Positions 51,213-64,000 of a stretch of DNA of 64,000 bases are shown one piece after another. The position numbers were made by a program, and so were the translations under genes. Positions within the stretch are counted from its first letter, which is position 1. Each line of letters starts with the position of its first letter. This DNA comes from Bordetella genomosp. 11 (GTDB taxonomy: Bacteria; Pseudomonadota; Gammaproteobacteria; Burkholderiales; Burkholderiaceae_B): NCBI RefSeq assembly GCF_002261215.1, contig NZ_NEVS01000004.1, positions 124,001 to 188,000 on the forward strand, written 5' to 3'. The notes under the pieces were generated by a model. That model was given only the letters and a program-made list of their open reading frames with translations, had not been told where the DNA came from and ran no database searches.

Positions 51213-51686
51213 ATGGCCCGTCACCTTCGCCGACAATTGACCGCCTGGCTTGGCCTGCTCGCCATGTGCCTGATCGCGTTCGCGCCGACGGCAAGCCATT
51301 TCGTCCGTGCCGCACGGACCTTCGTTTTGCCCGTCTGCACGGTCGACGGCCAGGGTGAACACACGGTCAGCCTGTTTGCGGTCGACGCGCGCTCCGACGG
51401 TGCCGCCGCGACGGCGATGAACGGCATGAAAGACATGCCGGGCATGCGACACGGCGCGGCGGCGGGCGGCAGCGGCGGCCATGCCGATCATCGCTCGGGG
51501 CCCATGGACGATTGCGGTTATTGCGATCTGTTCAACCATGCGCCCGCGATATCCATGGTGCCGCCCGCGCCGCTCGCGCCGCTTTTGCTGCTGTTCGGCA
51601 CGCTCGTATTGCCGGTCCTGACGCGCTATACGCCGTTCGGCGCCTTCCCCTCGGGCCGCCCGCGCGCCCCGCCCGCCATTTCCTGA
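51213..51686 (+). CDS. DUF2946-family small exported protein with a metal-binding-like region
   Basis: 157 aa. The N-terminal hydrophobic segment (LTAWLGLLAMCLIAFAPTASHFV) looks like a signal or anchor. A His/Met-rich stretch (MNGMKDMPGMRHG, HADHRS) leads to the DUF2946 cysteine pair CGYC, then a second hydrophobic helix. Such proteins accompany TonB receptors and copper genes; metal handling is inferred. The TonB receptor follows 79 bp downstream. Confidence 0.75.
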   Translation: MARHLRRQLTAWLGLLAMCLIAFAPTASHFVRAARTFVLPVCTVDGQGEHTVSLFAVDARSDGAAATAMNGMKDMPGMRHGAAAGGSGGHADHRSGPMDDCGYCDLFNHAPAISMVPPAPLAPLLLLFGTLVLPVLTRYTPFGAFPSGRPRAPPAIS

Positions 51687-51765
51687 TCCCCGTCTCGCGA
51701 TCCGAATGCCGCCGCCTCGTGTCGGCGTGTGCGTTCGTCTTCCCATTTCGATATCAGGAAATCCG

Positions 51766-54207
51766 ATGTCCTATCCTGCCTTGCGGCGCGCGCTGTCGTG
51801 CGCGCGCCTGGCGGCGGGGCTGGCCGGTGGCGGCATCCTGCCGCTGCTGCTGCCCGCGCGCGCCTGCGCCGCCGATGCCACGCCCGCCTTGTCTCCCGCC
51901 GTCGGCGTGGCCCCCGATGCGCCATCCGCCTCTCCGCCGCAAGCCCCGCCTGGCGATGCGGCCGCCACCGTGCCTTCCGGACCGGCGCCCGGCAATCCGG
52001 CGCCATCCGTGCTTCCTACCGTCAGCGTGACCGCCGACGCCGGCGATGCGCCCGCCTTCGATCCCGACCTGCCGGCTTCGGTGGAGTCCGTCTCGCGCGA
52101 GCAGTTCGGAAACTGGAACGTCGTCAATAGCGAGGACACGCTGAAGTACCTGCCCAATCTGGCGGTGCGCAAACGCTTCATCGGCGACCAGAACTCCCTG
52201 ATCGCCGTGCGCGGCACCAGCAATAGCCAGAGCGCGCGCGGCCTGGTCTATGCCGATGGCCTGCTGTTGAGCAATCTGCTGGGCAACAGCTTTAGCTTCG
52301 CCCCGCGCTGGTCCATGGTCGCGCCCGACGAGATCGACCGCGTCGACGTCATCTACGGCCCTTATTCGGCGCTGTACCCGGGCAATTCGCTGGGCGCCAC
52401 CGTGCTGATGACCACGCGCATGCCCGAAGCCTTCGAAGCCCACGCGGACGTGAAGGGGTATACGCAGCACTTCGATCTGTTCGGCGTCGATCGCGACTTT
52501 ACGGGCGGCCAGAGCTCGGCTTCCTTCGGCGACCGGGTCGGCAAGTTGTCCTATCGCCTGGACGCAGGCCATCTGGAGAACACCAGCCAGCCGCTGCAGT
52601 TCGCCACGCTGCCGCGTTCGACCACGCCGGCCCGCGCGGGCGACACGCCCGTGACCGGCGCCCGCTTCTACGAGAATCAGACTGGCGCGCCCACCGTCGT
52701 ACTGGGCGTGAACGGCGAGGGCATCGAGCGCACCGTGGAAGACCAGTTCAAGCTCAAGCTGCGATACGACTTCACACCCACGCTGCAGGGTGGCGCGACG
52801 GTGGGCTATTGGCGCGATCGCTACCGCAGCGATACCTCGACCTTCCTGCGCGATCCCGCAGGGAACAAGGTCTACCAGGGCACGGTCGACATCGGCGGAT
52901 ACGAGTACGCGATCCCTGCATCCGCGCTGGCGCCCAGCCGCGGCGACAGCGAGAACTGGCTCTATGGCCTGTCCTTGAAAACACGCAATCCAAGCGGCTG
53001 GAACGGGGAAGCGATCGCTTCGTATTACGACGTCGCGCGCAATGTCGCCCGCAACGCCAGCCAGGGCGGCCCGGGAGATGGGCCGGGCACCGTCACCTAT
53101 GGCGATGGCACGGGATGGAAGACGCTGGACCTGCGGTCGACGTATACCCAGCCGGCATCGGCGGCGGGCCTGGCGGCCCACGACCTGGCGTTCGGCTACC
53201 ACGTGGACAGCTATTTTTCCGACAGCAGGACCTTCACGACGGACGATTGGTCGGATGGGAGCGCCGGTGCCTTCGCCAACGCCTTCAAGGGCAACACGCA
53301 GACGCAGGCCTGGTATGCCCAGGATGCGTGGCGTTTCCTTCCGCGCTGGAAATTCGTTTATGGGTTGCGCTACGAGGACTGGCGCGCCTATGGCGGCTCG
53401 CAGGCGGTGGGCGGCGTGCGTGCGTCGTACCCGAATGCCGATCAGCGCCATGCGTCGCCCAAGGCATCCTTGTCCTTCGATGCGACGGACGACCTGACGC
53501 TGCGGGCTTCCATCGGCCGCGCCTACCGCTTTCCGACCGTGGGGGAGTTGTTCCAGGGGAAGATCAACGGTTCGACGCTGATCAACAACAACCCGGACCT
53601 GCAGCCCGAAAACGACTTGTCCAAGGAGTTGACCGCGCAATGGACGGGCGACAGCGGCGTGTTGCGCGTGTCGCTGTTCCAGGACGATGTGGAAAACACC
53701 ATCTTCAGCCAGACCGACACCACGACGATTCCCAATGTGACCAGCTTCCAGAACATCGACAAAGTGCGCTCGCGCGGCGTCGAAACCGCTTACCAGGGGC
53801 AGGACGTCGGTGTCCGCGGGCTGGATCTCATCGCCAATCTCGCCTATACGCAGTCGAAGATACTGGCCAATTCGCAGAACCCGGCGTCCGTGGGCAAATA
53901 CTTCTATCGCATTCCCCTGTGGCGCGCTAACCTCGCCGCGACCTATCGCTTTGGCGACAAGGCCGCGCTGACCGGCGCGGTGCGCTATTCGGGACGCCAG
54001 TACAACACGCTGACCAACACCGACAGCAATCCGGATGTGTTCGGCGGCACCAGCACGTATACCGTCGTGGATGCCAAGTTCACCTACCGGTTGAATCGCT
54101 ATAGCGAGGTCAGCGTGGGCGTGGACAACCTGTTCGACGAAAGGTATTTCGTCTATCACCCGTATCCCGGGCGCACCTTGTACGTGGAAACCCGCCTGCA
54201 CCTATAG
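51766..54207 (+). CDS. TonB-dependent outer-membrane receptor
   Basis: 813 aa from MSYPALRR after AGGAA. A signal peptide ends near ACAADA. A Pro/Ala-rich linker precedes the TonB-box-like VLPTVSVTAD, the plug (LPNLAVRKRFIGDQNSLIAVRG, EIDRVDVIYGPYSALYPGNSLG) and a 22-strand barrel ending in VETRLHL with the C-terminal hydrophobic residue pattern. The ligand may be a metal complex or siderophore, given the DUF2946 neighbour and the Fur-like box. No transporter for the inner membrane is adjacent. Confidence 0.9.
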   Translation: MSYPALRRALSCARLAAGLAGGGILPLLLPARACAADATPALSPAVGVAPDAPSASPPQAPPGDAAATVPSGPAPGNPAPSVLPTVSVTADAGDAPAFDPDLPASVESVSREQFGNWNVVNSEDTLKYLPNLAVRKRFIGDQNSLIAVRGTSNSQSARGLVYADGLLLSNLLGNSFSFAPRWSMVAPDEIDRVDVIYGPYSALYPGNSLGATVLMTTRMPEAFEAHADVKGYTQHFDLFGVDRDFTGGQSSASFGDRVGKLSYRLDAGHLENTSQPLQFATLPRSTTPARAGDTPVTGARFYENQTGAPTVVLGVNGEGIERTVEDQFKLKLRYDFTPTLQGGATVGYWRDRYRSDTSTFLRDPAGNKVYQGTVDIGGYEYAIPASALAPSRGDSENWLYGLSLKTRNPSGWNGEAIASYYDVARNVARNASQGGPGDGPGTVTYGDGTGWKTLDLRSTYTQPASAAGLAAHDLAFGYHVDSYFSDSRTFTTDDWSDGSAGAFANAFKGNTQTQAWYAQDAWRFLPRWKFVYGLRYEDWRAYGGSQAVGGVRASYPNADQRHASPKASLSFDATDDLTLRASIGRAYRFPTVGELFQGKINGSTLINNNPDLQPENDLSKELTAQWTGDSGVLRVSLFQDDVENTIFSQTDTTTIPNVTSFQNIDKVRSRGVETAYQGQDVGVRGLDLIANLAYTQSKILANSQNPASVGKYFYRIPLWRANLAATYRFGDKAALTGAVRYSGRQYNTLTNTDSNPDVFGGTSTYTVVDAKFTYRLNRYSEVSVGVDNLFDERYFVYHPYPGRTLYVETRLHL

Positions 54208-54308
54208 CGGCGGCAGCGCGCCGCGCGCATGGCGGTCCCGCTTCGTCCGCGCCGTGGCCGTGCGGGGCGGGGCGAAGCCGGCTAGGGTATCCACCAATCC
54301 GTATTGCA

Positions 54309-54338
54309 TTGACAGCGGCACGTGGCAGTCCGGATAAT
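54309..54338 (+). promoter_or_regulatory. Sigma-70 promoter of the nitrilase-amiCR operon
   Basis: TTGACA at 54309-54314 and GATAAT at 54333-54338, 18 bp apart. This is the best sigma-70 match I noticed in the window. Transcription should begin near 54345, giving a leader of almost 200 nt before the nitrilase ATG. Confidence 0.7.
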
Positions 54339-54352
54339 TTGTCGCAGGTCCA

Positions 54353-54366
54353 GGACAATATTGTCC
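54353..54366. promoter_or_regulatory. 14-bp perfect palindrome GGACAATATTGTCC near +8
   Basis: It lies at the start of the transcript, where a repressor would block promoter clearance. The cognate regulator is not evident, and the operon itself encodes no classical DNA-binding repressor. Confidence 0.45.
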
Positions 54367-54374
54367 CGGGCCGA

Positions 54375-54413
54375 CGCAGCAGGATTGCTGCGCAAACACA
54401 GGCTATGAAAGCC
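54375..54413 (+). promoter_or_regulatory. Two leader hairpins, candidate ANTAR (AmiR) binding element
   Basis: Hairpin 1 (54375-54392) has a perfect 6-bp stem CGCAGC/GCTGCG and a hexaloop AGGAUU. Hairpin 2 (54401-54413) has stem GGCU/AGCC and loop AUGAA. The 3' arm of hairpin 2 is also the 5' arm of terminator 1, so the two cannot coexist, which is the ANTAR antitermination layout. Both loops begin A-x-G-A. The published consensus, as I remember it, has A at loop position 1 and G at 4, so the fit is not exact. Confidence 0.5.
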
Positions 54414-54450
54414 CTCGCATCGCGCTTCCAGCGTGGTCGAGGGCTTTTTT
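54411..54450 (+). terminator. Leader terminator 1 of the nitrilase operon
   Basis: GCCCTCG (54411-54417) pairs with CGAGGGC (54438-54444), followed by six T. It lies about 100 bp before the first gene. Confidence 0.8.
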
Positions 54451-54473
54451 ATTTCCGGGCCGCCGCAAGACTA

Positions 54474-54525
54474 TGCCTCCTTGCGGCAGCGAGCCGGCTT
54501 GCCGGCGCGGCGCGGAGGCATTTTT
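54474..54525 (+). terminator. Leader terminator 2 of the nitrilase operon
   Basis: TGCCTCC pairs with GGAGGCA around an inner GCCGGC-tt-GCCGGC hairpin, followed by TTTTT. It ends 16 bases before the nitrilase start codon, so the gene should be silent unless termination is overridden. Confidence 0.7.
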
Positions 54526-54541
54526 CGTTTCTGGAGTTTCC

Positions 54542-55432
54542 ATGTCGTCTTTGGCTTCCGCCGGCGAGCGCGTATTCCCGGACACCATCGTGGCCGCCGT
54601 GCAGATGGATTGCCGCATCGGGCAGAAGGACGCGAACGTGGCGCGCTCGCTGGCATTGATCGAGCAGGCCGCGGCGCGCGGCGCGGTCATTGTGGTGCTG
54701 CCCGAGCTGTGCAACACGGGCTATGTTTTCGACAGCCGCCCCGAGGCCTTCGCCCTGGCGGAAAGCGTGCCGGACGGCCCCACCGCCCAGGCCTGGATCG
54801 CGGCGGCGGCGCGCCTGGGCATCCATATCGTGGCGGGCATCACCGAGCGGGCGGGCGATCGCCTATACAACGCCGCGGCCGTCATCGGCCCGCGCGGCTA
54901 CCTGGGCACTTATCGCAAGCTGCATCTGTGGGGCGAGGAGAACCTGTTCTTCGAGCCCGGCGACCTGGGCTTGCCCGTCTTCGATACGGAGCATGGCCGG
55001 CTGGGCGTGGCGATCTGCTATGACGGGTGGTTTCCGGAGGTGTATCGCCTGCTCGCCCTGCAGGGCGTCGATATCGTCTGCATGCCGACCAACTGGGTGC
55101 CCATGCCGGGACAGGATCCGCGCCACCCCACCATGGCTAATACCCTGGCAATGGCCGCGGCCCATAGCAACGGCCTGAGCATCGTTTGCGCCGATCGCGT
55201 GGGTGTGGAGCGCGGCCAGCCGTTCCTGGGCCAGAGCCTGGTGGTCGGCGCGCAGGGCTGGCCGCTGGCCGGGCCGGGCTCTCCCGACCAGGAGGAAATC
55301 CTTTGCGCGGCGATCAACCTGAAGCGCTCGCGCGCCGCCCGCCATCTGAATCCCTACAACGTCGTGCTGCGCGACCGGCGCGACGATCTTTATCGACTCG
55401 TACCCGGGCCCGGGCAGACGCGTCCCGGCTAG
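54542..55432 (+). CDS. Nitrilase-superfamily carbon-nitrogen hydrolase
   Basis: 296 aa, ATG after GGAG. The catalytic triad is E55 (LPELCNTG), K126 (YRKLHLW) and C159 (AICYDGW). The subgroup looks like aliphatic-amide, carbamoyl or omega-amide hydrolases rather than true nitrilases, and it is shorter than AmiE amidases (about 346 aa). Being first in an operon with an amide-type importer and AmiC/AmiR, it probably hydrolyses the imported amide or nitrile to acid and ammonia. It is preceded by tandem terminators. Confidence 0.88.
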   Translation: MSSLASAGERVFPDTIVAAVQMDCRIGQKDANVARSLALIEQAAARGAVIVVLPELCNTGYVFDSRPEAFALAESVPDGPTAQAWIAAAARLGIHIVAGITERAGDRLYNAAAVIGPRGYLGTYRKLHLWGEENLFFEPGDLGLPVFDTEHGRLGVAICYDGWFPEVYRLLALQGVDIVCMPTNWVPMPGQDPRHPTMANTLAMAAAHSNGLSIVCADRVGVERGQPFLGQSLVVGAQGWPLAGPGSPDQEEILCAAINLKRSRAARHLNPYNVVLRDRRDDLYRLVPGPGQTRPG

Positions 55433-55455
55433 CGCGGTCCGCGCGCATCTCCGGT

Positions 55456-55483
55456 CCGTATCGCGCAATACGGCGCGATACGG
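55456..55483 (+). promoter_or_regulatory. Perfect intercistronic hairpin (11-bp stem, hexaloop AAUACG)
   Basis: CCGTATCGCGC pairs with GCGCGATACGG between the nitrilase and the binding-protein gene, with no T tract. It could protect the downstream mRNA from 3' decay and raise binding-protein output, or be another ANTAR-type site. Confidence 0.5.
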
Positions 55484-55536
55484 CGCGGTTCGCCGCCGCG
55501 TGGCGGTCCGACCTTATTTACTACACAGGACAGAAG

Positions 55537-56697
55537 ATGAAAACCACAGCTACTTTCCTTGCCCCCGCCGTCCTGGCCTGCGCCAGCCTGCTGGCCGTGG
55601 CCCAGGCCGCCGAACCGATCCGGATCGGCGTCGCCGTCGGCTTGTCCGGCGCCAACAGCGTGGTCGCGCCGGCGGCCGTGCAGTCCTCGCAATTGGCCGT
55701 CGACGAAATCAATGCGTCCGGCGGCATCCTGGGCCGCCAGGTGCAGCTGGAGATCGCCGATGACGGCTCCGGCGCCGTCGGCGCGCAGAAGGCTTTCGAT
55801 ACGCTGGTCTTCCAGAAGAAGGTCGACGCCGTGATCGGCATGGAAACCAGCGCGGCGCGCAGCGCCGGCCTGCCGGTGGTGGCGCGCGGCAAGACGCCGT
55901 ATATCTACACTTCGTTCTACGAAGGCCGCTCGTGCAGCAAGTGGCTGTATGTCAACGGATGGGTGCCGGAACAGCAGGTGGCCCCGGTGGTGGACTACTT
56001 TACCGGGCATGAGAAAGCCAAGACCTTCTTCCTTGTCGGCAGCGATTACTCGTTCGGCCGCGGCATGCTGGCCTTCACGCGCAAATACATCGAACAGAAG
56101 GGCGGCAAGGTCGTGGGCGAGGAATACCTGCCCATGGACGGCAGCGACTGGACGGCGGTGATTTCCAAGATCCGCGCCGCCAAGCCCGACGCGCTGATCA
56201 GTTCCACCGCGGGCGGCGCGCCCAATGTATCGCTGGCCAAGCAGCTGAAGGCGGCCGGCATCGCCATCCCGTACGGCAACCTGGCGATCGACGAAGGCAC
56301 GGCCAAGACCATGGGCGACGTGGCCTCGGGGATGTACCTGTCGGCGTCCTACCTGACCAGCATCGACAACGCCCAGAACAAGCGCTTCCTGGATGCCATG
56401 CACAAGAAGTTCGGCGCCGAGCTGAAGACGCCCAATGAACTGTCCGAGCCCCAGTACGAAGCCTTTTTCCTGTACAAGGCCGCGGTGGAAAAAGCCGGGA
56501 CGACGGATTCCGACAAGGTCATCCCGGCGCTGGCGCAAGTGTCGTACGACGGCCCGCGCGGACCGGTCAGCATGAACAAAAGCCGTCACGCCGCCCTGAA
56601 CATGCACCTGGGCCAGATCCAGGCGGATGGGTCGGTGAAAATCCTGCAAACCTTCACGGCGGTCGATCCGGGCCCGCAATGTCCCAACATCAAGTAA
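55537..56697 (+). CDS. Amide/branched-chain-type ABC transporter substrate-binding protein
   Basis: 386 aa, ATG after AGGACAGAAG. A signal peptide ends at AQA-AEPIRIG. The periplasmic type I fold is visible: IGVAVGLSGANSVVAPAAVQSSQLAVDEINASGGILG, and SFYEGRSCSKWLY. It shares its fold and the Y/F-Y-E-G pocket segment with the AmiC sensor encoded downstream (SFYEGFEY), so importer and sensor probably see related ligands. Confidence 0.9.
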   Translation: MKTTATFLAPAVLACASLLAVAQAAEPIRIGVAVGLSGANSVVAPAAVQSSQLAVDEINASGGILGRQVQLEIADDGSGAVGAQKAFDTLVFQKKVDAVIGMETSAARSAGLPVVARGKTPYIYTSFYEGRSCSKWLYVNGWVPEQQVAPVVDYFTGHEKAKTFFLVGSDYSFGRGMLAFTRKYIEQKGGKVVGEEYLPMDGSDWTAVISKIRAAKPDALISSTAGGAPNVSLAKQLKAAGIAIPYGNLAIDEGTAKTMGDVASGMYLSASYLTSIDNAQNKRFLDAMHKKFGAELKTPNELSEPQYEAFFLYKAAVEKAGTTDSDKVIPALAQVSYDGPRGPVSMNKSRHAALNMHLGQIQADGSVKILQTFTAVDPGPQCPNIK

Positions 56698-56748
56698 TGC
56701 GTCCGGCAGCCCGGAGGCGGATGGCGCAAGGCGCACTGGACCACTGAT

Positions 56749-57582
56749 ATGGACCTACTACTGGATGTGCTGACGACGGCGGCGATGCTGTTCGTGGTAA
56801 CGGCCGGGCTGATGGTGATTTTCGGCGTCATGAAGATCGTCAATTTCGCCCATGGCGCCTTGATTACCCTGGGCGGCTACGTCAGCTACGTCGTCACGCG
56901 GCTGGGCCTGGATCCGTGGCTGGCCTGGCCCCTGGCCGTGCTCTGCGGCATCGTGGCGGGGATGGCGGTGGAATGGCTGGTCGTGCGCCCGCTGTACCGG
57001 CGCCCGCTGGATGCGATCCTGGCGACCTGGGGACTGGGGATCGTCATCGGGCAATTGATCGTGCTGGCCTTCGGGCGCGAAGTGCAGTTCGCCGATGCGC
57101 CGCTGTCCGGCATCTGGACCGTGGCGGGTACCGGCTATTCGGCGTATCGCATCGTCCTGATTCCGGCGGCGCTGGCGCTGTGGGCATTGCTGGCCGGCCT
57201 GCTGAACGGCACACGCTTCGGCGTGCGCACCCGCGCCGTCATCATGAACGAACCGCTGGCCAGCGGACTGGGCATCAATGCCGCGCGCATCCGCTTCATT
57301 ACCTTCAGCCTGGGCGCGGGCCTGGGCACCCTGGGCGGCGCGCTGGTGACCCCGCTATCCAGCGTCGACCCCAATATGGGCGTCGGCTGGCTGATCAGCG
57401 CCTTCATGCTGGTGATGGTGGCGGGGCATTCGATCACGAGCCTGTTGCTGACCTGCCTGGTATTCGGCGCTTGCCAGGTATTGGTCAGCATCTATGTGAA
57501 CCCGGTCCTGGGCGGCCTGACCATTGCCGTGCTGGCGGCGCTGACCTTGCGCGTGCGGCCGAAGGGGTTTGCCCATGAGTGA
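56749..57582 (+). CDS. ABC transporter permease (LivH-like)
   Basis: 277 aa with about eight membrane helices. LivH-type motifs: VIFGVMKIVNFAHGALITLGGYVSYV and the cytoplasmic loop FGVRTRAVIMNEPLASGLGINAARI. It is the first permease half of the importer. Its last 8 bp overlap the next gene. Confidence 0.92.
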   Translation: MDLLLDVLTTAAMLFVVTAGLMVIFGVMKIVNFAHGALITLGGYVSYVVTRLGLDPWLAWPLAVLCGIVAGMAVEWLVVRPLYRRPLDAILATWGLGIVIGQLIVLAFGREVQFADAPLSGIWTVAGTGYSAYRIVLIPAALALWALLAGLLNGTRFGVRTRAVIMNEPLASGLGINAARIRFITFSLGAGLGTLGGALVTPLSSVDPNMGVGWLISAFMLVMVAGHSITSLLLTCLVFGACQVLVSIYVNPVLGGLTIAVLAALTLRVRPKGFAHE

Positions 57583-59401
57583 TGCAATGAGCGATCGTAC
57601 CGGCGCGCCCGCCACCCAGGCGGCGAGGTCGATGGCGTCCGGCAGGGGACTGGGCGCGCTGGCCGTCGCGGGACTGGTGCTGGTGGCCGCCGGGCCTTTC
57701 CTGTTCGACACCTATTTGCTGAACGTCCTGATCAAGGCGTACTTCTTCGCCATCGCCGCCCTGACCGTGGACCTGTTGTGGGGCTACACGGGGTATCTGA
57801 CCTTCGGCCAGTCGGCCTTCTTCGGCATGGGCGCGTATGCCGCGGGGCTGGCCTTTACGCACTACGGCTTTTCGCCGGGCGTGGTCGCGCTGGCGCTGCT
57901 GGCCGCGGTCGCCGCGACGGCGGTGGTGGCGGCCGTCGTGGGCTGGCTGTCGTTTTATCGCGGGGCGTCGCCGTTCTTCGCCACGGTGATATCGCTGGTA
58001 CTGCCCATCGTCCTGACCCAGCTGGTGCTGACCGGCGGGGAATGGACGGGCTCCAGCTCCGGCCTGACCGGCTACGACAGTTTCGATCTCTCGCTGGCTG
58101 GCTGGTACTGGGTCGCCGGAGCCGCCCTGGCGGTGGCCGCGGCGGCGGGGTGGCTGCTGGTGCGCAGCGATGGCGGCCGCGTCCTGACGGCCATCCGCGA
58201 CAACGAGACCCGCTGCGAATACCTGGGCCTGCGCGTATCGCGCGTGCGCATCCTGCTGCTGGTGGCGATGGCGGTCGTGGCGGGGCTGGCCGGATTCGGC
58301 TACGGCGCCTTCAGCGGCGTGGTGGCGCCGGAGCTGACCGGCTTCGTGCTGGGCACGGAACTGATCGTCTGGGTCGCGCTGGGCGGCAGGGGAACCTTGT
58401 GGGGGCCGCTGGTGGGCGCGGTGCTGATCAACGTGGCCAGTGCCTACCTGAGCGGCAGCATGCCCTTCGCCTGGCAGTTGATACTGGGCGTGGCATTCGT
58501 CGCTGTGATCCTGTTGCTGCCCCGCGGCCTGGTGCCGCTGTTGCTGCGCCCGTTCGGCCTGGGCCGGCTGGCACCGCGCATCCCCGTGCTGCAGGCGCGC
58601 GATGTCGGGCAGCCCGACCGGTCCGGCCCGCCGGCGCTGGCCATGCGCGACGTCAGCCGGCACTTCGGGTCCCTGCAGGTACTGCGCGGCATTACGCTGA
58701 CCGCGCGGGCCGGTGAGCTGGTGGGCCTGATCGGCCCCAACGGCGCGGGCAAGACCACCCTGATGCGGGCGCTGAGCGATGGCGCCGAGCGCAACGGCGG
58801 CACCATCGCCCTGTGCGGACACGACATCGGCCGGCAACCGCCGCAGGATTGTGTGCGCGACGGCCTGGGACGCAAGTTCCAGAACGCGAATATCTTCGAC
58901 ACCTTGACCGTCGCGGACAGCCTGCGCATCGCGGGGTCGCTGCATGACAGGCCGTCGCTGTGGCGGCGGTCGGATACGCTGCGGCTGCCGTCCTACGCGC
59001 TGGAGGTCCTGCGCGCGACGGAGGTCGATCGCAAGCTGGGCGAGGTCGCCCGCGACCTGTCGCATGGCGAGCAGCAGGCGCTCGAACTGGCCATGGTGCT
59101 GGCCCTGGCGCCGCGCATCGTGCTGCTGGATGAGCCGACGGCGGGCTTGAGCCGGCATGAACGCGCCCGTATCGGTGAAATCCTGGCTTCGCTGGCCCAT
59201 CGCCACGGCCTGTGCTGCCTGCTGGTGGAACACGACCTGGATTTCGTCGAGCAGGTCGCCACCCGCATCGTCGTCCTGCACCAGGGCGCCATTGTCATGG
59301 ACGGCAGCTTCGCCGGCGTCGTCGGGTCGGAACTGGTCAAGACGATCTACGCCGGCACGGGGCAGGGGGGTGCGATGGGCGACAAGGGGGGACACCAATG
59401 A
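57575..59401 (+). CDS. LivM-LivG fusion: ABC permease and ATPase in one chain
   Basis: 608 aa. Residues of about 30-335 are a LivM permease (YTGYLTFGQSAFFGMGAYAAGLAF, AIRDNETRCEYLGL). Residues of about 355-600 are a LivG ATPase with Walker A GPNGAGKTT, signature LSHGEQQALELAMVLAL, Walker B IVLLDEPTAGLS and H-loop EHDLDFVEQV. Usually these are two genes. The start is the ATG at 57575, overlapping livH. It would form the importer with the LivH- and LivF-like proteins. Confidence 0.92.
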   Translation: MSDAMSDRTGAPATQAARSMASGRGLGALAVAGLVLVAAGPFLFDTYLLNVLIKAYFFAIAALTVDLLWGYTGYLTFGQSAFFGMGAYAAGLAFTHYGFSPGVVALALLAAVAATAVVAAVVGWLSFYRGASPFFATVISLVLPIVLTQLVLTGGEWTGSSSGLTGYDSFDLSLAGWYWVAGAALAVAAAAGWLLVRSDGGRVLTAIRDNETRCEYLGLRVSRVRILLLVAMAVVAGLAGFGYGAFSGVVAPELTGFVLGTELIVWVALGGRGTLWGPLVGAVLINVASAYLSGSMPFAWQLILGVAFVAVILLLPRGLVPLLLRPFGLGRLAPRIPVLQARDVGQPDRSGPPALAMRDVSRHFGSLQVLRGITLTARAGELVGLIGPNGAGKTTLMRALSDGAERNGGTIALCGHDIGRQPPQDCVRDGLGRKFQNANIFDTLTVADSLRIAGSLHDRPSLWRRSDTLRLPSYALEVLRATEVDRKLGEVARDLSHGEQQALELAMVLALAPRIVLLDEPTAGLSRHERARIGEILASLAHRHGLCCLLVEHDLDFVEQVATRIVVLHQGAIVMDGSFAGVVGSELVKTIYAGTGQGGAMGDKGGHQ

Positions 59402-60099
59402 GTTTATTGAAACTCGATGGGGTGACCAGCGGGTACGGCGCCTCGGTCGTGCTGCGCGGCCTGTCGATGGAAATCGGCGCCGGCCAGGCGGTGGCCCTGC
59501 TGGGCAAGAACGGCATGGGCAAAAGCACCTTGCTGAAGACCGTCATGGGCTATCTGCCCAAGCAGTCCGGCACCGTGGCGCTGAACGGCGAGGACATCAC
59601 CCGGCTGGCGCCGCACCGGGTGGCGCGCAAGGGCGTGGCCTATGCCGCGCAGGAACAGGCCATCTTTACCGAACTGAGCGTGCGCGACAATCTGCGGCTG
59701 GGCCTGGCGCGGGAGGCGGACTTCCCCGAGCGGTTCGCCGCCATCGAGCCCCTCTTTCCGGTGTTCAAGGACAGGCTCCGGCAGCCCGCCGGCACGCTGT
59801 CGGGGGGCGAGCAGAAGATGCTGCTGGTGGCGCGCGCGCTGATGCTGCGTCCATCCGTTATCCTTCTGGACGAAATCACCGAGGGCCTGCAGCCTTCGGT
59901 GATCGACCGCCTGGCGCAAGCCCTGTTGTGGGAGCGCCAGGAAAATGGCACGACGATGCTGCTGATCGAACAGAATGTCGCCTTCGCGCTGCGTGTGGCC
60001 GACCGCTACCTGGTCCTGAAGCAGGGCGAGATCGTCGAAGAGGGCGACGCCCGCGATGGGGCGGCGGCCGAAACGATATTTGCCCATCTGCGTGTCTAA
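59398..60099 (+). CDS. ABC transporter ATPase (LivF-like)
   Basis: 233 aa, ATG overlapping the stop of the fusion gene. Walker A GKNGMGKST, signature LSGGEQKMLLVARAL, Walker B VILLDEITEGLQP and H-loop EQNVAFAL. The TEGLQP wording is typical of LivF/UrtE. It is the second ATPase of the importer. Confidence 0.93.
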   Translation: MSLLKLDGVTSGYGASVVLRGLSMEIGAGQAVALLGKNGMGKSTLLKTVMGYLPKQSGTVALNGEDITRLAPHRVARKGVAYAAQEQAIFTELSVRDNLRLGLAREADFPERFAAIEPLFPVFKDRLRQPAGTLSGGEQKMLLVARALMLRPSVILLDEITEGLQPSVIDRLAQALLWERQENGTTMLLIEQNVAFALRVADRYLVLKQGEIVEEGDARDGAAAETIFAHLRV

Positions 60100-60162
60100 G
60101 GCCTTGGGCCAGGCATCAGGCCTGGCCCAGGGTCCCGGCGCGCGGTGGGCCAGGATGGAACT

Positions 60163-61305
60163 ATGACTGCAACCAGGGGATCGTCGGCGGACTGGCGGAT
60201 CGGCATACTGTTTTCGCGGACCGGCGTGACGCGAGTCACCGGCTCGGAGCATTTCCTGGGCACCGCGCTGGCGGTCGAGGAAATCAACGAGGCGGGCGGC
60301 GTGCTGGACCGGCAGCTCGCCCCGGTCTGCTATGACCCGGCCAGCAACCCGGCGGAATACCGGCGCCTGGCCACGCAACTGATGGCGGACGATGACGTCA
60401 ATGTGATCTTCGGCTGCTCCACTTCGTCCAGCCGCAAGGCCGTCCTGCCGGTAGTGGAGCGCAATAACGGACTGTTGTGGTATTGCTCGTTCTATGAAGG
60501 TTTCGAGTATTCGCCCAACGTGGTCTACACGGGGGCGGTGCTCAACCAGAACGCCATGCAGCTGGCGGCCTACCTGCTGCAGCACAACGGTTCGCGGTTC
60601 TTCCTGGTCGGGTCCGACTATATCTATCCGCGCGAGTCCAATCGCGTGATGCGGGACATGGTCGAACAGCACGGCGGCGAAGTGCTGGACGAAGTCTACC
60701 TGCCGCTGACGGCCGGCCCCGCGGAAGTGGCGGAGGTCATCCGGGACATCCAGGCGGCCCAGCCGGAGGTGGTGTTTTCCACCGTGGTGGGCGATTCGGC
60801 CCGCACGCTGTACCGGCAATACGCCGAAAGCGGCCAGGATCCGCGCCGCGTTCCCATCGCCAGCCTGTCCATGGCGGAAGAAGAAATACGCCTGATCGGG
60901 CCTCGGCTCTGCGCCGGGCACATTACCGCCGCGACGTATTTCAATTCCCTGGACAACGAAAGCAATCGGCGCTTCACCGCCCTGTGGCGCGCGCGCTATG
61001 GCGACCGGCCCACCAGTACGTGGTCCGAATCCGCATACAACCAGGTCCACCTGTTCGCCCGCGCGCTGGAGCGCACCGGCAGCCTGGACCCGACCAAACT
61101 GGTGCGCACGGCCCATTCGGTGCGTTACGATTCGCCGGAAGGGCCGCTGGCCATCGATGCGGAAAACAATCACTGCCTGTTGACGCCGCGTATCGGCGTT
61201 TGCCGCGAGGACGGGCAGTTCGACGTCGTCTGGCAAGGGGCAGGTCCGGTCAGGCCGGATCCCTATCTGTCCACCTTCGGACTGGCCGAGTTCTGGCTGA
61301 AGTAA
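60163..61305 (+). CDS. amiC: Amide sensor and negative regulator AmiC
   Basis: 380 aa from MTATRGS after AGGATGGAACT. It has a periplasmic-binding-protein fold but no signal peptide, as expected for cytoplasmic AmiC. Family segments: WRIGILFSRTGVTRVTGSEHFLGTALAVEEINEAGG, CSTSSSRKAVLPVVE and CSFYEGFEYSPNVVYTG. In Pseudomonas aeruginosa AmiC holds AmiR inactive until an amide binds. It is adjacent to amiR (4-bp gap), supporting the same pairing. Confidence 0.93.
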   Translation: MTATRGSSADWRIGILFSRTGVTRVTGSEHFLGTALAVEEINEAGGVLDRQLAPVCYDPASNPAEYRRLATQLMADDDVNVIFGCSTSSSRKAVLPVVERNNGLLWYCSFYEGFEYSPNVVYTGAVLNQNAMQLAAYLLQHNGSRFFLVGSDYIYPRESNRVMRDMVEQHGGEVLDEVYLPLTAGPAEVAEVIRDIQAAQPEVVFSTVVGDSARTLYRQYAESGQDPRRVPIASLSMAEEEIRLIGPRLCAGHITAATYFNSLDNESNRRFTALWRARYGDRPTSTWSESAYNQVHLFARALERTGSLDPTKLVRTAHSVRYDSPEGPLAIDAENNHCLLTPRIGVCREDGQFDVVWQGAGPVRPDPYLSTFGLAEFWLK

Positions 61306-61309
61306 CGCG

Positions 61310-61918
61310 ATGAGCAGCATACGCCGCCTCTACGAAGATCTGCGCAGCATCAGCGTCGCGGTCGTGCATCCGCCCGGCGAGGATCGCGAACTGCTGATCG
61401 AGCAGCTCAAGCGCATCGGCTGCCGCCTGCAGGTGTTCTGGCCGTATTGCCAGGAGCCGCCGCGCGGCGCGGACGTGGTGTTCTTCCACCTGTCGCAGGA
61501 TATTCCCAGCGGCGGCATGTGGTGCGCCAGCGCGACGGAGGCGACGTTGATCGCCTTGTCTGACTACGAAAGCCCCACCACGCTGAAACTGTTGCTGGAC
61601 AGCAGCGCCCATGGCGTGCTGACCAAGCCCTTCCGGTCTTCCGGCGTATTGAGCACGCTGGTGCTGGCACGTTCGGCGCAGGGCTTCCAGCAGCGCCAGC
61701 AGGCCAAGATCCAGAAGCTGGAAGCCACCATCAAATCGCGGCGCCAGATCGACAAGGCCATCAAAGTGCTGGTGGACCACCAGGGCATGGACGAGATCAA
61801 GGCCTACGAGCACATGCGCGCCCGGGCGACCAGCCTGCGCGTGACGGTGGCCGAGGTGGCCTCGATGGTGATCGATGCCCAGGAAGTCATGGAGAAGCTG
61901 GGCCTGGGGCGGTCCTAG
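61310..61918 (+). CDS. amiR: ANTAR-domain transcription antiterminator AmiR
   Basis: 202 aa. The N-terminal pseudo-receiver domain lacks the usual phospho-acceptor pattern (SISVAVVHPPGEDRELL). A coiled-coil (QQRQQAKIQKLEATIKSRRQID) leads to a three-helix ANTAR domain (about 135-195: AIKVLVDHQGMDEIKAYEHMRARATSLRVTVAEVA). AmiR binds leader RNA and prevents termination when released by AmiC. The predicted target is the leader at 54375-54450. Confidence 0.94.
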   Translation: MSSIRRLYEDLRSISVAVVHPPGEDRELLIEQLKRIGCRLQVFWPYCQEPPRGADVVFFHLSQDIPSGGMWCASATEATLIALSDYESPTTLKLLLDSSAHGVLTKPFRSSGVLSTLVLARSAQGFQQRQQAKIQKLEATIKSRRQIDKAIKVLVDHQGMDEIKAYEHMRARATSLRVTVAEVASMVIDAQEVMEKLGLGRS

Positions 61919-61938
61919 CGGCCCAGCGGTCCAGCGGT

Positions 61939-62472
61939 CTAGGGCCCCATACCGCCCGCCAGCATGGCGCGCAGGTCCGCCTCGAACGCCTCGCGCACCG
62001 CCGCGGACGCATGGGCGCCGACCTGCAGGCGTGTGGCGCCCTGGCGCAGCCACAAGGTGTCGTCGGCGTCCTTGATCACGCGCAGTCCCTGCGCCGGCAG
62101 CAGATAGGTTTCATGCCGCAAACCCTGGTCTACCTCTACCCGGACCTCGCGCGCATCCGTCAACGTGACGGTTTCGCCGTCTATGGCGTGGCGGGCGTAC
62201 GCCAACGCCGCGGTGCCGACGGCGGCGAGCTCCAGGCCGCAGAAAACCGGCACCAGCCAGATGCCGCGTATCCAGCAGGCCAGCGCCACCAGCGTCGACA
62301 TCCCCATGAGCAGGCCGATGCCCGCCGCGTACTGCACCGGCCGCAACGCGCAGTTGCGCTTGAGGCGCCAGACCCGGGACCCGCGCGGCGGGCGCCATGG
62401 AAACGCCCAGCCGCCGGCTGCCGGCGGGGCTGCCGACGCCAGGTCGTCGGTGTTCAGGCTAAGGCGTCTCAT
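61939..62472 (-). CDS. DUF2244 membrane protein
   Basis: 177 aa from MRRLSLNTDDL. RNCALRPVQYAAGIG then two membrane helices and GLELAAVGTAALAYARHAIDGETV are typical DUF2244 wording. The soluble C-terminal part is beta-rich. These genes usually sit beside cytochrome oxidase genes, as here (ctaD 49 bp upstream on the same strand). A link to oxidase assembly is inferred from location only. Confidence 0.82.
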   Translation of the reverse strand: MRRLSLNTDDLASAAPPAAGGWAFPWRPPRGSRVWRLKRNCALRPVQYAAGIGLLMGMSTLVALACWIRGIWLVPVFCGLELAAVGTAALAYARHAIDGETVTLTDAREVRVEVDQGLRHETYLLPAQGLRVIKDADDTLWLRQGATRLQVGAHASAAVREAFEADLRAMLAGGMGP

Positions 62473-62521
62473 GCGGGTTTCCGTCCAGGCGCGAAAGGCC
62501 GTGGGCAAGCGGTATGCCCGT

Positions 62522-64000
62522 CTACTTTACTTCCGGCGGCGTTTCGAAGGTATGGAAGGGCGCCGGGGAGGGCACTGTCCACTCCAGTCCCGCCGCGCCT
62601 TCCCAGGGGCTGGCCGGTGCCCTGGCCCCTTTCCCGGCGAAGCAGCGCAGCACCGCATACAGGAAGATCAGCTGCGACAGGCCGAACCAGTACGCGCCGA
62701 TGGTGGCGATCTGGTGAAAGGTCGTGAACTGCGCGGCGTAGTCGACATAGCGGCGCGGCATGCCCGCCAGGCCCAGGAAATGCATGGGAAAGAAGGTCAG
62801 GTTGAACGAGATCATCGAGGACCAGAAGTGCAGCTTGCCCAGCTTCTCGCTGTACATGTAGCCGGTCCACTTCGGAATCCAGTAATAGGTGCCGGCGAAC
62901 AGCCCGAACAGCGAGCCGGCCACCAGGACGTAATGGAAGTGCGCCACCACGTAATAGGTGTCATGCACCTGGATGTCGATGGGCGCGATCGACAGGATCA
63001 GGCCGGTGAAGCCGCCTATCGTGAAGACGAAAATGAAGCCGATGGCGAACAGCATCGGGGTCTCGAAGCTGAGCTGTCCCCGCCACATCGTGGCCACCCA
63101 GTTGAACACCTTCACCCCGGTGGGGATGGAGATCAGCATGGTCGCGTACATGAAGTACAGCTGCCCGGTCACCGGCATGCCGGTGGCGAACATATGGTGC
63201 GCCCACACGATGAAGGACAGCACCGCGATCGCCGCCACGGCGTAGACCATGGATGCGTAGCCGAACAGCTGCTTGCGGGAGAACGTCGGGATGACGGCCG
63301 AGATGATCCCGAACGCCGGCAGGATCATGATGTAGACCTCCGGATGCCCGAAGAACCAGAACAGGTGCTGGTACAGGACCGGATCGCCGCCGGCGGCGGC
63401 GTTGAAGAAATCGGTGCCGAAGTGGCGGTCCGTCAGGACCATGGTGACGGTTGCCGCCAGCACCGGCATCACCCCCAGCAGCAGGAAGGCGGTGATCAGC
63501 CAGGTCCAGCAGAATAGCGGCATCTTCATCAGCGTCATGCCGGGCGCGCGCATGTTCAGGATGGTGACGATGATGTTGATCGCGCCCATAATGGACGAGG
63601 CGCCCATGATGTGCAGCGCGAAGATCGCCATATCCATGCCCGGGCCCATCTGGACCGACAGCGGGGCATACAGCGTCCACCCGGCTGCCGTCGCGCCGCC
63701 GGGCACGAAGAACGACGCGGTCAGCAGCACCGCGGCCATCGGCAGGATCCAGAAACTCAGGTTGTTCATCCGCGCGAACGCCATGTCGGCCGCGCCGATC
63801 TGCATCGGGATCATCCAGTTCGCGAAACCCACGAAGGCCGGCATGATCGCGCCGAACACCATCACCAGGCCGTGCATGGTGGTGAACTGGTTGAACAATT
63901 CGGGCTGGAAGAACTGGATGCCGGGCTCGAAGAGCTCGGTGCGCAGCAGCAGGGCGAGGACCCCGCCTTCCAGCAGCATGACGAACGAGAAAATCAGGTA
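62522..64000 (-). CDS. ctaD: Cytochrome c oxidase subunit I (3' part)
   Basis: The frame is open at the right edge; 492 residues of the C-terminal part are seen (full length about 530). Haem-copper ligands are present: HPEVYI (CuB histidine and cross-linked tyrosine), AHHMF (two CuB histidines) and HFHYVL (haem a3 and haem a histidines). The K-channel region [10 protein letters not shown] follows. It is the catalytic subunit of the aa3 oxidase in the inner membrane. Confidence 0.96.

Follow-up and report, generated by a model that had tools for sequence, protein, structure and literature searches.

The window, by which we mean the whole 64,000-nucleotide stretch of Bordetella genomosp. 11 DNA that was analysed, carries on its forward strand an operon in the order nitrilase-superfamily enzyme, UrtA-like binding protein, Urt-like transporter, AmiC and AmiR, which starts with the ATG at 54542 and ends at 61918 (Table 1). 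The scores of the enzyme and of the binding protein fall far below the NCBIfam equivalog cut-offs. An earlier note on this DNA had placed amiC and amiR at the end of the operon, and the Pfam search confirmed this: the product of 61310-61918, which adjoins amiC, consists of an AmiR_N pseudo-receiver (PF03861) followed by an ANTAR domain (PF21332), and a cognate ANTAR protein is thus encoded together with its target operon. The urtC permease and the urtD ATPase form a single 610-amino-acid frame (57569-59401) that begins with TTG or at an inner ATG. A gene for a TonB-dependent receptor (51706-54207), whose best NCBIfam match is a haem receptor family scored under the cut-off, lies directly upstream on the same strand, and a TonB-dependent receptor also lies upstream in the closest relative (L046).

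Table 1. Features of the leader and of the operon that follows it (positions of the window)
Feature	Position	Strand	Evidence
Sigma70-type promoter, −35 TTGACA 54309-54314, −10 GATAAT 54333-54338, spacer 18	54309..54338	+	11/12 matches
P0, RNA hairpin at the 5′ end, core GGAC-AATATT-GTCC 54353-54366	54347..54372	+	Folding, paired changes
P1, first ANTAR-type hairpin, stem CGCAGC/GCTGCG, loop AGGAUU	54375..54392	+	Folding, alignment, covariation
P2, second ANTAR-type hairpin, GGCU-AUGAA-AGCC	54401..54413	+	Folding, alignment
T1, intrinsic terminator, AGCCCTCG/CGAGGGCT stem and T6 tract	54410..54450	+	Folding, covariation; 27/27 aligned leaders
Insert, diverged dispersed-repeat copy absent from the other 26 leaders	54455..54526	+	Alignment, pattern search
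Anti-T2 hairpin, GCCGCAAG/CTTGCGGC, in the insert, holding the T2 5′ arm	54462..54487	+	Folding
T2, terminator-like ATGCCTCC/GGAGGCAT stem and T5, within the repeat copy	54473..54525	+	Folding
Shine-Dalgarno GGAG of the first gene	54533..54536	+	Sequence; similar GGAG precedes the start in relatives
Carbon-nitrogen hydrolase, nitrilase superfamily, first gene	54542..55432	+	Family profiles
UrtA-like binding protein and Urt-like ABC transporter (urtB, fused urtC-urtD, urtE)	55537..60099	+	Family profiles
AmiC-like ligand sensor	60145..61305	+	P. aeruginosa AmiC 1pea, 1.1e-89
AmiR-like ANTAR antiterminator	61310..61918	+	P. aeruginosa AmiR 1qo0, 7.1e-25

The strong promoter described in the earlier note is indeed present ahead of the first gene, and both its TTGACA and its GATAAT are kept in L046. 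It was the sole sigma70-like match in a scan of 51500-62600; the scan by itself proves nothing, since the shuffled region averages 1.8 matches at the same threshold. By eye, most of the leaders upstream of nit in L047-L065 have in common, ahead of the −10 box, a conserved TCCGGGAAA...CTTATTG-like block; the window differs from them in its TTGACA promoter.

In a folding test of the whole leader, none of 200 shuffles did as well (z of −5.15). The small elements that had been read from the letters were all recovered: the hexaloop hairpin with a 6-bp stem is P1, and the second small hairpin, whose 3′ arm doubles as the 5′ arm of the first terminator, is P2. The folding program also paired the outer A and U of the P1 loop, leaving a GGAU loop, and together P1 and P2 reached a z of −2.5, with 2 of 200 shuffles equally good. 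T1 (54410-54445 plus six T) was far stronger at −27.8 kcal/mol (z of −6.8), and none of 200 shuffles folded as well. Because the AGCC at 54410-54413 is both the 3′ arm of P2 and the start of T1, the two structures are mutually exclusive by sequence.

We then compared the leader with those of related clusters. What decided the choice of the 27 aligned leaders was the similarity of AmiR and not the leader itself. All of them precede the first gene of the operon in AmiC/AmiR clusters; they comprise the window, L046, Schauerella, Achromobacter aestuarii, Hylemonella, two Herbaspirillum, two Paraburkholderia plasmids and 18 others, the latter from genomes of the family of A. aestuarii. That family yielded 32 AmiR matches at an E value of 4.5e-84 or better, and leaders were sought at 22 of these and not at 10; two of the 22 loci are L001/L002, and L062 ends before the leader. 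P1, P2 and T1 were present in all 27 leaders. Pairing was kept through two-sided changes from GC to UA and from AU to GC in P1 and from CG to UA at two places in T1, and these four pairs changed on both sides, a number reached by 3 of 500 shuffles, reflect few events among related genomes. The count of further pair types in P1 and T1 was not above that of shuffles (280/500). For P1 and P2 alone, the covariation score of 0.075 beat the shuffles but two slid controls were no lower (0.076 and 0.075). P2 is almost invariant and consequently tells little by covariation, and in that part the MAFFT alignment misplaces both Paraburkholderia rows by one base. The earlier note had proposed to look for compensatory changes in the hairpins among relatives; these were found for P1 with T1, where the covariation score was 0.128 against a shuffled mean of 0.059 (0/500) and slid controls of at most 0.076, whereas P2 is without a double-sided change.

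A covariance model (R1) built from the P1-P2-T1 part of the 27-leader alignment found six clusters outside that alignment, namely two of Acidovorax (L003 and L005, 75.2 and 73.8 bits), L150-L152 (39.2, 37.9 and 35.2 bits) and a Rhizobium plasmid (L101, 32.8 bits), and all six carry amiC/amiR. These genes lie upstream of the leader in L101 and L150-L152 and downstream of it in the Acidovorax clusters, where the leader (L003:4107-4188, L005:4105-4186) is internal to the cluster, with the binding-protein gene on one side and urtB on the other. Every leader locus with visible neighbours has both amiC and amiR in the same cluster. A search of 399 genomes of the order with R1 gave 13 matches at an E value of 0.01 or better, among them L149, which is the leader of L002 and is in the model, and L150-L152, which are new and convincing on reading. 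By eye, the other nine resemble chance terminators, several of them lying just after tRNA-like sequences. R1 gave no match in Paracoccus L102, where a leader was expected; 54400-54490 of the window also drew a weak reverse-strand match of 18.5 bits. On the Rhizobium L101 and Paracoccus L102 plasmids, amiC-amiR precede a related nitrilase/Urt cluster, followed in Paracoccus by urease genes. Among 18 nitrilase-homologue loci (L066-L083) only L066, from the same genome as L004, gave an R1 match; this control is weak because the flanks are 1.5 kb or less and the leaders of G549, G301 and G427 lie on the same contig at a distance of about 5-7 kb.

Collectively, these data make it quite probable that 54309-54541 serves as the attenuator leader for an operon of amide/urea-type uptake and hydrolysis, controlled by the AmiC-AmiR pair of that operon, and that T2 came into this leader as an inserted repeat. 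By default, the strong T1 hairpin would form and transcription would stop. By analogy with the P. aeruginosa and EutV systems, ligand on AmiC would free AmiR, and the freed AmiR would bind P1 and P2. Bound P2 would then retain the AGCC arm that T1 needs, and the polymerase would read through. The antitermination by an ANTAR protein proposed in the earlier note is thus supported by the linkage to amiC/amiR, by the covariation of P1 and T1, by the exclusivity of P2 and T1 and by the R1 matches outside the model. An attenuator that senses a ligand directly or codes for a leader peptide, independently of AmiR, would agree with the Rfam search, in which no family covered the leader at the gathering score (best weak match, E value of 0.16) and no ANTAR RNA family matched it; nevertheless, the leader accompanies amiC/amiR even where the gene order differs, as in Rhizobium and Acidovorax, and P2 overlaps T1 as in known ANTAR leaders, so that we regard this reading as very unlikely.

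The loops depart from the published ANTAR motif, which is described in the parts of the sources available to us as two hexaloops with A at position 1 and G at position 4 (PMC3369931, PMC8934654). The P1 loop of the window, AGGAUU, has A1 and carries A in place of G4, and the P2 loop is AUGAA on a 4-bp stem or UAUGAAA on a 3-bp stem, neither of which is an A1/G4 hexaloop. Across the 27 leaders, A1 of P1 is invariant; at position 4, 12 leaders carry G and 15 carry A, and the loop measures 7 nt in 18. Textbook A1/G4 loops occur at P1 of Paraburkholderia (AACGAU) and of Rhizobium L101 and L150-L152 (AGGGCU); in the same three groups the P2 loop is a 6-nt UANGNA if only three pairs form, and the folding program closed both loops of these relatives to 4 nt. 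The occurrence of A1/G4 loops in these groups suggests that the ancestral P1 probably had G4, from which the clade of the window would have drifted. The suspicion, voiced in the earlier note, that recognition involves a variant loop was therefore borne out, with A for G at position 4 of P1 and a P2 loop of 5 or 7 nt.

The residue Met172 of EutV is described in the consulted part of one report as a possible plug that sets loop size (PMC8934654). At this position Thr is found in the AmiR of the window and in the aligned AmiR rows of 39% identity or more, and Met in L090, L010 and L015 (under 30% identity) and in 1qo0, 6wsh and 1s8n. A change from Met172 to Thr was rejected as the cause of the altered loops, since the AmiR proteins of Paraburkholderia and Rhizobium also have Thr and their P1 loops are A1/G4. 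In the window and its 26 relatives, two tandem small hairpins lie upstream of an intrinsic terminator, and the second overlaps its 5′ arm, as in ANTAR dual-hexaloop leaders. We class the leader as one that works like an ANTAR attenuator but does not strictly belong to the A1/G4 dual-hexaloop consensus.

A further hairpin, P0, lies ahead of P1 and was largely overlooked by the earlier note, which had seen a palindrome at about +8. This palindrome, GGACAATATTGTCC at 54353-54366, is the core of the longer hairpin at 54347-54372 (−15.2 kcal/mol, z of −4.0; 1 of 200 shuffles equally good), and P0 would span about +2 to +27 if transcription starts near 54345-54346. A hairpin was predicted in the 5′ segment after the promoter in all 27 leaders, with −10 boxes placed by eye or by pattern; compared with shuffles, z lay below −1 in 18 of these segments (mean of −1.5) and not in the other nine. 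In 22 leaders, all from the wider family of the window and giving 18 distinct rows, P0 has a 6-nt loop, and the P0 alignment consists of these 22, each picked for having a hexaloop hairpin of 4 bp close to its 5′ end, with L004, L006, L007, L099 and L100 omitted. All four core pairs were kept in the 18 distinct rows, three of them with two-sided changes and with one G-U and one U-G pair, although the full pairing is in part due to the selection of leaders for such a hairpin. Positions 1 and 4 of the loop are the best conserved (A1 in 17/18 and A4 in 16/18), position 6 is U in 14/18, and positions 2, 3 and 5 vary. In Paraburkholderia, Herbaspirillum, Hylemonella and Acidovorax a hairpin was predicted at the place of P0 with an unrelated sequence and mostly another loop.

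We infer from this recurrence that P0 is a structural part of the leader, most simply a protective stem-loop at the 5′ end. The conserved positions, 1 and 4, are also those of the loop on which ANTAR proteins depend, and G4 is replaced by A4 just as in P1 of the window and of Herbaspirillum. P0 could accordingly be a third AmiR-binding hairpin, which we hold to be rather unlikely; such a site fits only the 22 leaders, and a plain structural role fits all of them. If P0 did bind AmiR, the leader would be an array of three hairpins, recognised by a branch of AmiR proteins whose loop code has shifted, and AmiR could load on the RNA once it is out of the polymerase. The same element might instead act in the DNA, as the operator of a repressor, given that the 14-bp core is a perfect palindrome in the window just downstream of the promoter. 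Such an operator appears improbable, because the stem sequence differs between lineages and its pairing is kept, including the G-U and the U-G pair, and because the five other leaders and Acidovorax, with unrelated sequences, still have a predicted hairpin. As a recurring stem-loop, P0 adds to the published motif, in which it does not figure in the portions of the reports at hand.

The second terminator-like element tells a different story. As the earlier note had stated, the stem at 54473-54521 is followed by a T tract that ends 16 nt ahead of the ATG at 54542. Two terminators in series are not, however, a feature of the system, since T2 occurs in one of the 27 leaders and is absent from L046. 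Its fold reached a z of only −1.8, and 12 of 200 shuffles were equally good. T2 lies within about 72 extra bases (54455-54526) that only the window possesses, while in the other 26 leaders, which lack the repeat, no more than about 60 nt separate T1 from the Shine-Dalgarno sequence and the start codon. L046 and the 25 other leaders thus represent the empty site.

The insert resembles a dispersed repeat. Used as a query against 61 genomes, it gave matches at E values up to 1 in 55 of them, mostly short and GC-rich, and one long match of low E value (G130, 1.2e-4) led to the repeat, a unit of about 70-80 bp, often in tandem at about 80 bp, of the form GGGCCGCCCCAAG...CCCCCTTGGGGGGCAGC...GTGGGGGC. 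The insert matches the pattern GGGCCGCCCCAAG...CCCCCTTGGGG and aligns over the unit. Against a copy in the genome of the closest relative it scored 42 over nearly its full length (shuffled mean of 13.6, maximum of 24), and its alignment with 27 of the 30 copies examined (L119-L148) beat all 300 shuffles, whereas that with the remaining three did not. The pattern gave 58 matches in 6 of 14 genomes, 25 of them in G030 of the family of A. aestuarii, and the reversed pattern gave none; as the pattern was written to admit the copy of the window, and the 14 genomes include the already repeat-positive G130, G032 and G030, the weight rests on the alignment and the reversed control. A search of plasmids for T2 gave no match, and the 64-kb window holds one copy of the repeat.

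The repeat has two competing stems, one of CCCCAAGG with CCTTGGGG and one of GCCCCC with GTGGGGGC, which in the window correspond to the anti-T2 hairpin and to T2. The earlier note mentions neither the anti-T2 hairpin nor the derivation of 54455-54526 from a repeat. The predicted folds with the anti-T2 hairpin and with T2 are 1.3 kcal/mol apart (−34.6 and −33.3 kcal/mol), and the anti-T2 hairpin is complete before the 3′ arm of T2 is transcribed. T2 is thus probably weak, because the competing hairpin forms first and its fold is slightly more stable, and the apparent antiterminator of T2 is a property of the repeat, to which both stems belong. Judged from these sequences, T2 is most likely a repeat copy that landed in the leader, not a designed double lock, and it would probably act as a leaky, tolerated passenger rather than as a part of the switch. 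In the lineage of the window, the diverged copy would have been inserted between T1 and the ribosome site.

Two other accounts of T2 were weighed. T1 and T2 could be an attenuator of two steps by design, with both terminators relieved by AmiR or by a second factor and with a tighter off-state. The terminator shape of T2 with its T5 tract, as well as the antiterminator-like hairpin at 54462-54487 that takes up its 5′ arm, would suit such a device. Its distribution among the leaders, the origin of both hairpins in the repeat, the absence of an ANTAR-like loop from the insert by eye and a fold not clearly beyond shuffles leave this design little credence. The tighter off-state that the earlier note had deduced from two barriers is likewise not upheld: T2 is peculiar to one leader and aligns with a dispersed repeat, and its 5′ arm is taken up beforehand by a hairpin of nearly the same energy. 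Alternatively, T2 could stem from a tandem duplication of the P2-T1 segment, to which a weak similarity of T1 and T2 would point (score of 14, shuffled mean of 10.3). As 31 of 500 shuffles did as well and the alignment with the repeat spans nearly the whole insert, this origin was rejected and is hardly credible. The reading of T2 as an inserted repeat makes the leader a natural case in which a dispersed repeat drops a terminator-shaped element into an attenuator, and it warns against reading stacked terminators as design.

With this leader, a classical antitermination system of which few examples have been sampled is extended to an operon of the nitrilase/Urt type that occurs from Rhizobium to Burkholderiales. 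The natural loops of the leader violate the published A1/G4 hexaloop rule, with the amiC/amiR pair retained. A search of the open-licence literature found no account of the leader or of the dispersed repeat. AmiC and AmiR also have their place within the amidase operon of P. aeruginosa. Like the amiE leader of that operon, the leader of the window combines an AmiC sensor and an AmiR antiterminator with small hairpins ahead of an intrinsic terminator, whereas the operon itself encodes a nitrilase-superfamily enzyme and a Urt-like transporter. An aliphatic amidase scored over the cut-off in 13 of 369 genomes, and no P. aeruginosa-type amiE leader was seen by eye in the 250 bases upstream at 11 of these 13 loci. 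Reported, in the part of the source available, to have A1/G4 hexaloops (PMC3369931), the amiE leader is set apart by its description from that of the window, with A4 in P1 and a 5- or 7-nt loop in P2. The eut leaders of Enterococcus faecalis, which are ANTAR dual-hexaloop elements read by EutV, likewise have two hairpins in tandem, of which the second runs into the terminator, and an ANTAR protein; in contrast to them, the window has AmiC where eut has a histidine kinase, its loops are not both A1/G4 hexaloops, and its AmiR has Thr in place of the Met172 plug described in the excerpt consulted (PMC8934654). Finally, the Bor repeats of Bordetella, which the accessible part of their description gives as stem-loops of 26-30 bp (PMC1590033), resemble the repeat of the window in being short, dispersed and palindromic and in occurring in beta-proteobacteria; by that description they differ from its often tandem unit of about 70-80 bp, and the two might be related.
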